From a virus, in IMG/VR virus record IMGVR_UViG_3300003691_000016, positions 1-44,784 of that record: DNA of 44,784 nt; one strand, written 5' to 3'. A program made the position numbers and the translations under genes. Position 1 is the stretch's first letter; each line of letters begins with the position of its first letter. The notes under the pieces are model-generated. The model saw only the letters and a list, made by a program, of their open reading frames with translations. It was not told where the DNA came from and did no database searches. Below, piece by piece: positions 35,642 to 41,027 of the stretch.

Positions 35642-36817
35642 TTATGAGCCTACCTGAACGTCTACAGTTACTACACCATAATCGATGTCTGAAACTTTAG
35701 CCGCTTTATAGTTAGCGTTTTCTGCTTTAAGTTTGGTCTTTCTTACTTCAGTCCAAACTTCCAATGCCGACTCAGACTTAATTGCAAAGTCCTGAGATGG
35801 CTGCCATCTGTAATCAGGTTGTTTACCGAACGCAATCTGCAAAGCGCCAGTACCAAGGATTATACCACGTGAATGCAGTAGGGTTGCATCGTAGTCAAAA
35901 CCGTCCTGACCAGTCCAAGGAGCTGTAGTAGGATCTGCGCCATCATATTGACGAAGACCAGCCATTTCAACTTCTGAGTTATTAAGACCCCAACCAAGAG
36001 CTGTACCATCAGTGAAACCAAAGAACTGACCAGCTTCAACAATAAGCATAGCACCAACACGACCAATAATACCTGAGATATTACGGTTGTTGTTACCACG
36101 AACGTCACCGTTCTGCATAATTGTCTGATAACCGGAAGTGTCTTTACGAAGAATGTTTGCCATAGCTGAATCAATCATAAAGATCCATAATGGTCGGTCA
36201 TACTGTGCACCTTCACCGCCCATAGTAGTCTTGAACGGATCAAGAGGACGACGAATACCGCCAGTAGTAAAACCATTTGATGTTTTCAGAGTACGCTCAA
36301 TATCGAGAAGTTGGTTAAACGTAAAAGTCGTACCAAGATCGATTGTATGAGTAGGAGCCTGAGCACCATCATCGTTGGTTGTAATAAGACCTTGAGCGGC
36401 ATCAAATAACGCCTGATCTTTCCATCTGATCCATAGATCGCCAAGCTTCGAACGTGAATCCGAATGCTCATTAATCTGCAAATCGCCGATGTTAACACCA
36501 TCAAATTTATCGCCATTATCAACAACAAGTCGATAACGATCAACAGTAATTTTGTCAGAGAATTTCTTCTTCTGCTCACCTTTACCAAACGCTGTGTCTT
36601 TGCCTTTTATTGCTTTACCTGAGATGTTACCATCAAAGTCAAATACAACAGTGTGACCTTCAGCGGAGTTTTCATTGTTGGCCTGGAATACAACGGAATC
36701 TTTAGATGTTCCAGTGTAAGGGTTCCAGAAAGACTGAGACGCTTTCTGAATAAGCCCTTCACGCATCCATTTTCGACGTTCTAGATCCGAACCAACCTTA
36801 ACAATACCAGTAGACAT
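35642..36817 (-). CDS. Major capsid protein (N4 gp56 / DUF4043 type)
   Basis: 391 aa, close to N4 gp56 (about 400 aa). RKWMREGLIQKASQSFWNPYTG, then GHTVVFDFDGNISGKAIKGKDTAFGKGEQ, ITVDRYRLVVDNG and GDLWIRWKDQALFDA follow the DUF4043/N4-gp56 pattern of an HK97-like shell protein. C-terminal LHSRGIILGTGALQIAFG is also familial. The coding DNA is more G+C-rich than its surroundings, as expected for a highly expressed gene. AGAAGGATGACATT precedes the ATG. Confidence 0.9.
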   Translation of the reverse strand: MSTGIVKVGSDLERRKWMREGLIQKASQSFWNPYTGTSKDSVVFQANNENSAEGHTVVFDFDGNISGKAIKGKDTAFGKGEQKKKFSDKITVDRYRLVVDNGDKFDGVNIGDLQINEHSDSRSKLGDLWIRWKDQALFDAAQGLITTNDDGAQAPTHTIDLGTTFTFNQLLDIERTLKTSNGFTTGGIRRPLDPFKTTMGGEGAQYDRPLWIFMIDSAMANILRKDTSGYQTIMQNGDVRGNNNRNISGIIGRVGAMLIVEAGQFFGFTDGTALGWGLNNSEVEMAGLRQYDGADPTTAPWTGQDGFDYDATLLHSRGIILGTGALQIAFGKQPDYRWQPSQDFAIKSESALEVWTEVRKTKLKAENANYKAAKVSDIDYGVVTVDVQVGS

Positions 36818-37001: not shown

Positions 37002-37035
37002 AACTACTCTAGCTAAGTATAGAAACTAGAGTAGT
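37002..37035 (-). terminator. Terminator after the frameshifted gene
   Basis: AACTACTCTAG (37002-37012) pairs perfectly with CTAGAGTAGTT (37025-37035). Leftward it is followed by TTATTTTATTATT. It lies just after the stop codon reached in the shifted frame (about 37042), which supports that frame being the natural end of the gene. Confidence 0.8.
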
Positions 37036-37041
37036 TTAGTA

Positions 37042-37484
37042 TTAACTTAACGCTGCTCGTACAAAGCAATCTTTAGCTTCAAGTAGTTTACGCAAACCTG
37101 CAGACTTCTCTGGTCCATTAGGTAACCCTGACATTTCAGCAGCTAGTTCACCGATAGGTTTACTAACTTTTGTAACTTAAGAGGTAAATGAGTATAACTA
37201 AAATAGTCTAGTATACCGTTACTTACTGGATTAATCACCTTCTCATCTGTAATATTACGTTCAGCAAAGACTTTAGCATTACAATGATATACATCGTCTT
37301 GATTTAAGAACACAATATAATCACCTACTTTGACAGGCTCATAATGTTTAAACTCAATTACTTTACCATGTTCTATTGAAGTAAGAACAGAGGTTGACTC
37401 TTTGTTTAATATTTTAATAACATCTGATTCTACGACTAAATGAGCAAGACGCTTAATTGGTTTACTTTCAAATTCTTTGAACAT
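37042..37484 (-). CDS. Two-domain gene split by a -1 frameshift; Acb2/Tad1-like hairpin C-terminus
   Basis: The straightforward frame (37484-37143) gives 113 aa with a domain containing HYEPVKVGDYIVFLNQDDVYHCNAKVF, and ends LQKLVNLSVN. A -1 shift at AAAAG (37171-37167) instead continues LQK-VSKPIGELAAEMS and then GLRKLLEAKDCFVRAAL, stopping at about 37042, for 147 aa. The shifted tail matches the helical-hairpin phage family that includes cyclic-nucleotide sponges Acb2/Tad1 (from memory), where DYFSYTHLP..LQ.VSKP is continuous. Thus this is programmed frameshifting, a natural one-base deletion, or an A-run sequencing error. It lies between scaffold and capsid genes; the start overlaps the scaffold stop (TAATG) with GGAG upstream. 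Confidence 0.7.
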
Positions 37485-38191
37485 TAAAATATCTCCTTTG
37501 TGTAGTCTGTTGAGTTTTGTTTTTCGACTGCTTCTTTGGATGGGTTACCTGAGCCACGTGCATTTTTAAAGTCTGGCTCATCTAGAGCTTTCTCACCTTT
37601 AGCAATTACCTTATTCTTACCAAGATAGTTTTTAACCTCAGTGAGGTACTCATCAAACTGTATTTCGCCAGCTTCAAGTTTCTTAGTTATACGAGGTGGA
37701 ATGTCATTCTGAATTACATCGTCTGTGATAGCTAATGTTGGATTGTCAGTATTGAACTGCTCAAGCTGAGCTGTACGTCTCTCAAGCTCTGTCATATTAG
37801 AAGCTTCTTTGCTAATATCTGCACGCTTCTCTTTAAACTTGACGCGTTTAGCTTCTTCAATATTGCTGATCTCTGCACGCCAAGCTTCAGGGTCCTGAAC
37901 CTTTAGTTCTTCAAGTTTAGCTTGTTCAGTACTACTTAAGTTTGATACAGCATCACTTTCCCATGAAGAGGTAAGTTTGTCATTTTCTGCTTCTAGCGCT
38001 TTAACACGCTGCTGACCTTTAGTAAATGATGCTTGTGTGTCGCGACGTCTTATTTCTGATCTAACCGAGAATGCAGTTGCTTCATCTGTTCCTTCAGGTA
38101 GAACTAGTTTACCAGCATCGTCCTTGGTTGTGTTCGCGATAACCTCATTGACTTTGCTTTCGAAAGTCGGAGTACTATTTTCTTCTGCCAT
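37484..38191 (-). CDS. Capsid scaffolding protein candidate
   Basis: 235 aa from ATG 38191 (MAEENSTPTF; AAGGAACTCACT upstream); an in-frame ATG at 38215 lacks a ribosome binding site. Highly charged, acidic and helical, with a coiled coil about residues 70-160 (VKALEAENDKLTSSWESD, LEELKVQDPEAWRAEISN). It is the first gene of the leftward late operon, two genes before the major capsid protein, the usual place of the scaffold. Assignment rests on composition and position. Confidence 0.75.
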   Translation of the reverse strand: MAEENSTPTFESKVNEVIANTTKDDAGKLVLPEGTDEATAFSVRSEIRRRDTQASFTKGQQRVKALEAENDKLTSSWESDAVSNLSSTEQAKLEELKVQDPEAWRAEISNIEEAKRVKFKEKRADISKEASNMTELERRTAQLEQFNTDNPTLAITDDVIQNDIPPRITKKLEAGEIQFDEYLTEVKNYLGKNKVIAKGEKALDEPDFKNARGSGNPSKEAVEKQNSTDYTKEIF

Positions 38192-38278
38192 AGTGAGTTC
38201 CTTTGTTATGTGCAAAGCCTTTTAGCTTGACACGTTGTAGATCCTAATGAATCATATCTATATTATATAACAAAACTG

Positions 38279-39003: not shown

Positions 39004-40627
39004 CTTACGTATAAAGGAAGAAGACTTCAATGAACTCTATCCTGACTTAGTTGGTTACTACGATTTCTTTGATCGTCCTCCTGTTGTTAAAGACAGCGAT
39101 GAGTTCGAACGAAGATATCTAAGTAGTAAATTATGGAGACTAAATAATCTATATCATGTAATTGATAAATATGGCAAGCCTGTGGTCTTCAGAATGAATT
39201 ATGCACAGCATAAAGTTTATGCTAAGACTAGACAACATCCACGTATCATTATTCTTAAATCAAGGCAACAGGGAATCTCTACATTCTGGTTAGTTTGCTA
39301 TTTCGATGATGCAGTATTTGCACCATTTATGAATATTGGTCTTATGGCGCAAGGTACAGATGAGGCTTCTACACTACTAGAAAGAACAAAGTTCTTATGG
39401 AATATGCTAAATGATGATGTTAAGCGCTTTATTGGTGTTATTTTAACAAAAGATAATACTAAAGAGTTCTCATTTAGTAATGGTTCAACTATATTTATAC
39501 GTGTGTCATTTAGGTCTACTACTCTTCAAAGACTTCATATATCTGAAATGGGTAAAATAGCTAATAATTCACCTAAGAGAGCTAAAGAAGTCAAGACAGG
39601 GACTCTTCAAGCATTAGCTAAAGGTAATACTGGTGCAATTGAGAGCACAGCTGAAGGTAAGAACATGTTTAAGACTATGTGGGATGACTCTGTTCTTGCA
39701 TTAGCTTCTGGACAAATGACGCCTAAGGATTTTTATCCTGTGTTTCTTGCTTGGGTTGATGATCCTGACTGTGTGTTAGATGTTGACCAAGTTATAGATG
39801 ACGAAGCTAATAAGTACTTTAAAGAACTTGAAGAAAAGATAGATAGACAATTACGTAAAGAACAGAAGAACTTTTGGATAGCGCAGAGACGAGAACTTGC
39901 AGGTGATATATACCAGGAATACCCTGGTACACCTGAAGAGGCTTTTACTGCTAGTCGTGACGGTACTTACTACGCTAGACAGTTCAACGAAGAAGTTGTC
40001 CGTATGGGCGGAGTACAAAAAGGTTTATATGATCCTAACCTACCAACAGACGTCTATATGGACCTTGGAGTAGATGATTACGCTGTACTTCTATTTGTTC
40101 AATGGTATCGCAATAAATGGCGTATTATAGGCGAATACTGGAACAATGGGTATGCTTTAGTTCACTATATGGATAAAATAAAAGATTCAGAGTATGATAT
40201 AAGAGCTGTTAGATTCCCTCATGACATAAAAGTTAGAGAACAAGGGTCAGCTCATAATAATGGTAGAGCTAAAAGTAGATATGTAATAGCACAGGAATAT
40301 AAGAAGCTTCACAAATTACAATGGAGACTAGATGTGCTACCTAGATCTTCACTAGATAACGGTATTGAAGCAGTACGACGTATAATACCTAATATTCTCA
40401 TTGATCCGTCATGCCGCTATATTATAGATTGCTTCCTAAACTACTCTAAAGAATGGGATGACAAACTTGAGTGCTGGAAGACTACTCCTTTGCACAATGA
40501 GTACTCCCATGGAGCAGACACAGTACGACAACTAGCTGGAAATACAATTGAGCACGCTGACCAACATCAAAGTAAATTGGACTCATACTATGGACACAAA
40601 ACTAAAAGTGCAGGGTTCGCGTTGTAG
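38996..40627 (+). CDS. Terminase large subunit
   Basis: 543 aa starting at GTG 38996, with GGGAG (38982-38986) at ideal distance; a more upstream start would run through most of the small subunit's tail without a ribosome binding site. LKSRQQGISTFW is the Walker A, LQRLHISEMGKIAN the Walker B/catalytic Glu region, and AIESTAEGKNMF the coupling motif III of P22/T4-type terminases. The C-terminal RNase-H-like nuclease begins with VYMDLGVDDYAVLLFVQW and includes HGADTVRQL. It packages and cuts DNA. Confidence 0.92.
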   Translation: MINLRIKEEDFNELYPDLVGYYDFFDRPPVVKDSDEFERRYLSSKLWRLNNLYHVIDKYGKPVVFRMNYAQHKVYAKTRQHPRIIILKSRQQGISTFWLVCYFDDAVFAPFMNIGLMAQGTDEASTLLERTKFLWNMLNDDVKRFIGVILTKDNTKEFSFSNGSTIFIRVSFRSTTLQRLHISEMGKIANNSPKRAKEVKTGTLQALAKGNTGAIESTAEGKNMFKTMWDDSVLALASGQMTPKDFYPVFLAWVDDPDCVLDVDQVIDDEANKYFKELEEKIDRQLRKEQKNFWIAQRRELAGDIYQEYPGTPEEAFTASRDGTYYARQFNEEVVRMGGVQKGLYDPNLPTDVYMDLGVDDYAVLLFVQWYRNKWRIIGEYWNNGYALVHYMDKIKDSEYDIRAVRFPHDIKVREQGSAHNNGRAKSRYVIAQEYKKLHKLQWRLDVLPRSSLDNGIEAVRRIIPNILIDPSCRYIIDCFLNYSKEWDDKLECWKTTPLHNEYSHGADTVRQLAGNTIEHADQHQSKLDSYYGHKTKSAGFAL

Positions 40628-41027
40628 TGCACGACGTGAATTAATAGTAGCAGTGGACACCAACGGCGCAATCGGAGCAAGCGGAGACCTAGGTTTCAAT
40701 TGTCCTGAGGATATGGCATTCTTCAAGGAGTATACCATGGGTAAAGTCCTATGGTGCGGACGAGCGACGTATCCAACAGTTGCTAATCTAATAGGCCGTG
40801 ACGTGCGACAACTAAAGAGAGGTGAGTTTCCCAAAGGTTGTTATATAGGAGGTGGAGCTGTTTATGCTTCTGTTGTTAGTCGCGTTGATCGAGCAGTTGT
40901 AACATATCTAAATACAGAAATAGAGAATGCTGATACGTTCTTTCCTCGAGTCTTTCTTGCTAGTTTCTCGGAAGCGGCGGTAGTACGTAAAGGTAAGTGG
41001 GGAATGATAATAGTTTATGATAGATAA
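40590..41027 (+). CDS. Shortened dihydrofolate reductase
   Basis: 145 aa from ATG 40590, overlapping the terminase end by 38 bases. ELIVAVDTNGAIGASGDLGFNCPEDMAFFKEYT contains the Asp (residue 41) equivalent to E. coli DHFR Asp27. WCGRATYPTV matches the GRxTxxS NADPH-binding region, GCYIGGGAVY the second glycine motif, and VTYLNTEIENADTFFP the C-terminal part. About 20-25 residues between these blocks are missing compared with usual DHFR (about 160 aa): the strand with the LSS motif and the substrate Arg region. It may be active, changed in role or degenerate. DHFR recycles dihydrofolate made by TS-type methylation. Confidence 0.8.
   Translation: MDTKLKVQGSRCSARRELIVAVDTNGAIGASGDLGFNCPEDMAFFKEYTMGKVLWCGRATYPTVANLIGRDVRQLKRGEFPKGCYIGGGAVYASVVSRVDRAVVTYLNTEIENADTFFPRVFLASFSEAAVVRKGKWGMIIVYDR

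Follow-up and report, generated by a model that had tools for sequence, protein, structure and literature searches.

The gene between the scaffold-like and major capsid genes of the 44,784-nt window analysed here (viral record IMGVR_UViG_3300003691_000016, positions 1 to 44,784) is a swap-in accessory ("cargo") gene in a variable slot, and its two reading frames are the halves of one protein. Taking the account as a whole, we consider it rather probable that this cargo gene combines a GDY domain with a divergent hairpin of the Acb2/Tad1 superfamily, that its product likely acts in anti-defence, and that the lesion separating its frames is probably not programmed. The source phage is akin to Pseudoalteromonas phage PH1 (capsid 68% identical) and Vibrio phage VPMS1 (capsid 62%). 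The features of the locus are given in Table 1.

Table 1. Features of the cargo gene and its borders in the window.
Feature	Position	Strand	Remarks
Scaffold-like gene, upstream slot border	37484..38215	-	Kept beside the slot in relatives
Open frame as present	37143..37484	-	113 aa; start codon overlaps scaffold stop
GDY domain, residues 1-79	37248..37484	-	PHROG_36318, 1.4e-21; beta-rich model; homologues
Hairpin domain, N-terminal part YFSYTHLPLKLQK	37167..37205	-	Read in frame 0
CAA-AAG, point of frame loss, A_AAG tetramer in frame 0	37167..37172	-	Relatives continuous there
Hairpin domain remainder, VSKPIGE...RAALS, then stop	37042..37167	-	-1 frame; PHROG_1761, 1.6e-17 alone
Perfect 11-bp inverted repeat, 13-nt loop, putative terminator	37002..37036	-	Arms 37036-37026 / 37012-37002
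Major capsid protein, downstream slot border	35642..36817	-	68% identical to PH1 major head protein

Two reading frames encode one protein

The homologous part of frame 0 ends in ...HLPLKLQK, with K106 at 37169-37167. The original prediction placed the end of the open frame after LPLKLQK; the homology does stop there, but the frame itself runs on as LVNLSVN to a TAG at 37145-37143. The run at the break reads C-AAAA-G on the minus strand, with the four A at 37171-37168 and the G at 37167. Stepping one base back at CAA-AAG yields VSKPIGELAAEMSGLPNGPEKSAGLRKLLEAKDCFVRAALS followed by TAA, the end of which lies at 37042 as had been proposed, and the joined GDY-hairpin product comprises 147 aa.

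A profile search revealed that PHROG_1761 positions 66-97 matched frame 0 and positions 97-139 matched the -1 frame. The E-value was 4e-5 for the N-terminal frame, 1.6e-17 for the tail frame by itself and 6e-29 once the two were joined. The hairpin thus belongs to the PHROG_1761 family by a significant match across the whole domain, which bears out both the proposed union of the two frames in one protein and the earlier view that the helical tail is a conserved phage family. Additionally, the distance from the tail stop to the capsid start is 225 nt, and the cargo genes of relatives lie 177-234 nt from it, whereas the 326 nt that separate the frame-0 stop from the capsid start fall outside this range. 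Because the PHROG_1761 matches abut and the tail-stop spacing resembles that of relatives, frame 0 and the -1 frame are halves of one gene rather than a chance joining. We also found that YFSYTHLPLKLQK opens the hairpin in frame 0 and that the domain has no usual start codon there; the gene therefore looks like a former in-frame fusion with no separate full-length hairpin start.

The perfect terminator claimed seven bases past the tail was retained in part: the 11-bp repeat is perfect, but the spacing is 5 nt and the terminator scan did not score the inverted repeat at 37036-37002, which has a 13-nt loop and a weak T run. Elsewhere in the window, an ORF at 40548-41027 resembles dihydrofolate reductase by eye and overlaps the end of a terminase-like gene.

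Nature of the frame break

Relatives at 80 loci in IMG/VR, of which 24 are distinct, and at 54 loci in bacterial genomes read continuously through the break point; when relatives were checked for the same split, as had been suggested, none of the about 134 homologous hairpin loci, viral and bacterial-genome, had it. No second copy of the broken sequence was found in IMG/VR, and an exact DNA match to the slip site in a viral contig (L162) was judged to be chance. In the about 27.9 kb of the window that are comparable with the ORFs of relatives, no further frame break was present, which indicates that the record is not generally error-ridden; apparent other breaks were only spurious antisense ORFs. 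Since the one-base shift falls inside helix 1 of the hairpin, only the 113-aa GDY product is encoded. The break is most likely a natural one-base loss, which would be recent, or a local sequence error, rather than a programmed shift. Loss of one A, naturally or in sequencing, was thus the better of the two options originally put forward.

If sequencing or assembly had introduced the error, the real phage would have an intact gene and the break would exist in the record only. We regard this as somewhat unlikely: the lesion lies in a homopolymer of a single contig, the tail is otherwise undecayed and well conserved, and all relatives are continuous, but the A run is short (4 A) and the record is not indel-ridden over the stretch compared.

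The undecayed tail would also suit an adaptive, regainable off-state of an anti-defence gene, like the short acb2 (orf24) allele of PaMx41, a natural allele for which mutants expressing the long form of gp24 have been reported (PMC12043709). We consider such an off-state quite improbable for the window gene. A four-A tract is too short for high-rate contingency, which counts against it.

Programmed -1 ribosomal frameshifting that sets the ratio of the 113-aa to the 147-aa product is very unlikely, even though the join between the frames is clean, GDY exists naturally as a separate protein elsewhere, and the A_AAG in frame 0 permits cognate Lys re-pairing (PMC4066793): the motif is a tetramer only, without the X_XXZ_ZZN heptamer, Z_ZZN tetramers require a strong stimulator (PMC4066793), no SD-like motif lies within 30 nt upstream of A_AAG, the downstream fold is ordinary (z of -0.73) and supplies no structural stimulator, A_AAG is commonplace (74 occurrences among 11,954 codons in the long ORFs of the window), no relative is split, and the shift would fall inside a helix of the hairpin domain.

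Structural and sequence comparison of the hairpin domain

With the gene read as one interrupted protein, the hairpin was compared with known families. The window keeps the whole domain of the about 60-aa phage hairpins PHROG_1761 and PHROG_5120, including F..HLP..LQ.VSKP...E..GLRKLLEAKDCFVRAAL; members of these families read continuously, whereas the window hairpin is fused to GDY and broken in frame.

Direct searches for the proposed Acb2/Tad1 likeness were negative. Pfam PF24729 gave no match at E<=1 in the window or its relatives and none at E<=10 in distant hairpin members, with T4 Vs.4 as a positive control matching at 7e-20. A PDB sequence search with the hairpin returned no Acb2 or Tad1 match, Foldseek with the hairpin model found neither, and hhalign of the hairpin directly against T4-type Acb2 was also negative. 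Weak Pfam 'occludin' and NCBIfam matches were below the cut-off and were discarded as noise.

In contrast to these direct searches, a two-step route through PHROG_1454 linked the families. Hairpin members matched PHROG_1454 at 6e-5 to 9e-5, and T4 Vs.4 matched it at 7e-4, its KL.EA motif aligning in register with that of the hairpin members; genuine PHROG_1454 members from bacterial genomes match PF24729 at 1e-18 to 1e-24. Upon hhalign comparison of the hairpin family with PHROG_1454 members, we obtained 77% and a score of 29.3, whereas 200 column shuffles gave no more than 17.0 and the reversed control gave 10.0. Scores of around 20 are no proof alone, since a GDY alignment reached 21.3 by this test.

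The AlphaFold2 model of the hairpin (pLDDT 95.7) contained helices at residues 3-6, 13-32 and 37-58. This arrangement of a short helix and two long antiparallel helices matches the description of Acb2 (PMC12043709), and it is a feature of low specificity. The same short and two long helices occur across the Acb2/Tad1 superfamily (PF24729; T4 Vs.4, PaMx33 p26 and the PHROG_1454 members), and the likeness obtained via PHROG_1454 spans helix 1, the loop and the first part of helix 2. The window hairpin differs from the superfamily in having no direct Pfam or PDB match and in the helix-2 MW motif of PF24729 (MWANA), which is replaced by KDCFVRA, so that the ligand may differ. Overall, the remote homology supports placing the tail, as a distant homologue, in the Acb2/Tad1 superfamily on a divergent branch; the Acb2/Tad1-like character originally suggested was upheld by the two-step comparison and not by any direct Pfam, PDB or Foldseek match.

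Standalone hairpins were also observed. In Citrobacter phage phiNP, what appeared to be an upstream extension of a match is actually a standalone hairpin ORF, which is conserved and is unannotated in the record (L082:2899-3153). Others (L277-L330) occur in contigs of many bacterial phyla, including Actinomycetota, Chloroflexota and Planctomycetota; because they are so widespread in bacterial contigs, a role outside anti-defence is possible.

Model of the GDY domain

The AlphaFold2 model of the GDY domain revealed six strands and one helix, with pLDDT mostly 83-91 over residues 11-70, and it had no convincing match in the PDB. A relationship to the YRGW adaptor was considered and rejected; the two are alike by eye, but their profiles did not align. 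A short SKPI..LA motif is common to the GDY (37248-37484) and hairpin families, with the modest profile score of 21.3.

Variable contents of the scaffold-capsid gap

In 78 capsid-related loci, the scaffold-capsid gap is usually empty, measuring about 130-190 nt or 11-47 nt. Filled slots contained Tad2-like genes (PF11195, 6e-21 to 2e-24; L084, L088/L089, L090/L120 and L096), Gp49_66 genes (PF13876; L085, L096, L113 and L159) or an RyR-domain gene (PF02026, 3e-11; L087), and other genes fill a few gaps (L125/L127 and L134). The slot of L086 holds a GDY-Gp49_66 gene, the GDY domain of which is 60% identical to that of the window over 80 aa. Tad2 is a sponge that sequesters Thoeris signals (PMC12043709), and phage proteins with an RyR domain sequester these signals or break them down (PMC13232231).

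The cargo proteins resemble the window gene in position and differ from it in domain content. Tad2-like cargo with the YRGW adaptor shares its genomic slot, and this adaptor also occurs on a hairpin protein of Vibrio phage 1.185.O, but the Tad2-like fold and sequence are unrelated to those of the window hairpin. RyDEP, the phage RyR-domain proteins, occupy the same slot in L087, yet have an unrelated domain and degrade or sequester cADPR signals. Phage_gp49_66 also shares the slot and, in L086, is fused to the same GDY domain, which there carries a different C-terminal domain from that in the window.

A location between scaffold and capsid genes, with a start overlapping the scaffold stop, might be expected of an accessory morphogenesis factor, a scaffold or capsid helper with an accidental association with anti-defence. 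This is unlikely, as most relatives have nothing in the slot, unrelated families that include established anti-Thoeris ones fill it elsewhere, and the same modules lie beside terminase and portal genes in other phages.

Exchange of modules among cargo proteins

Module architectures of the cargo proteins were found with small HMMs built for this analysis. YRGW-Tad2 occurred in 81 ORFs (65 distinct), a raw count across related sequences that gives no frequency estimate, because most of the seeds that retrieved the YRGW set were Tad2-associated and phylogeny was left in the counts. The YRGW module was joined to Gp49 in L213 and to a hairpin in Vibrio phage 1.185.O (L171). GDY and Gp49 were found in both orders: GDY-Gp49 in L086, and Gp49-GDY in Vibrio phage 1F273_PE002 (L173, 1653-2517), where it overlaps the next, Tad2-like gene, which carries the note 'Thoeris_anti-defense'. 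L181 encodes Gp49-Tad2 and then GDY, and L180 carries a genuine Acb2 gene (PF24729, 3.4e-14) with a GDY gene immediately after it. Tad2-like genes are found close to hairpin genes in L003 and L012, as is Gp49 in L077. No second example of a GDY-hairpin fusion was found, so this combination has been seen once only.

Several further arrangements were observed in these loci. In L180 (1-1135), Acb2 and GDY lie in a row with a 155-aa gene that resembles Tad2-like proteins by eye. Acb2-like genes lie close to YRGW-Tad2 genes in the prophage contigs L218, L224 and L257. In two Erwinia phages (L169:1330-1764 and L175:800-1228), a possible P-loop NTPase-like N-terminus, with weak Pfam matches, is fused to the hairpin.

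Proposed function of the cargo gene

The location of the gene, its domain partners and homology make an anti-defence role of the full protein most likely. Such a role had been suggested for the tail, and the backing for it here is indirect, coming from the cargo slot, the domain swaps with Tad2-like and Gp49_66 proteins and the adjacency to Acb2; PADLOC returned no result. At its full 147 aa, the product would join a beta-rich GDY domain to a hairpin of two helices, and the intact protein would probably bind nucleotide immune signals as an anti-defence protein, with the hairpin contributing to an oligomeric binding site. Loss of the frame inside hairpin helix 1 would leave the GDY part of this protein by itself.

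As a more tentative extension, for which we would put the chances a little below even, the slot may be a dock for interchangeable nucleotide-signal sponges. The PHROG_1761 'LRKLLEAKDCFVRAAL' hairpins, Gp49_66 and GDY would then form an anti-CBASS/anti-Thoeris set, in which the hairpin would be a new Acb2/Tad1 branch with a different pocket.

The slot and the exchange of modules are the larger lead, and the frameshift itself carries little weight. An unnamed, widespread family of small hairpins and Gp49_66 are both tied to nucleotide-signal sponges through the slot and the domain swaps, and the hairpin has a third tie through remote homology. These ties make both of them candidate nucleotide-signal sponges, by which many 'hypothetical proteins' become directly testable as counter-defence factors.
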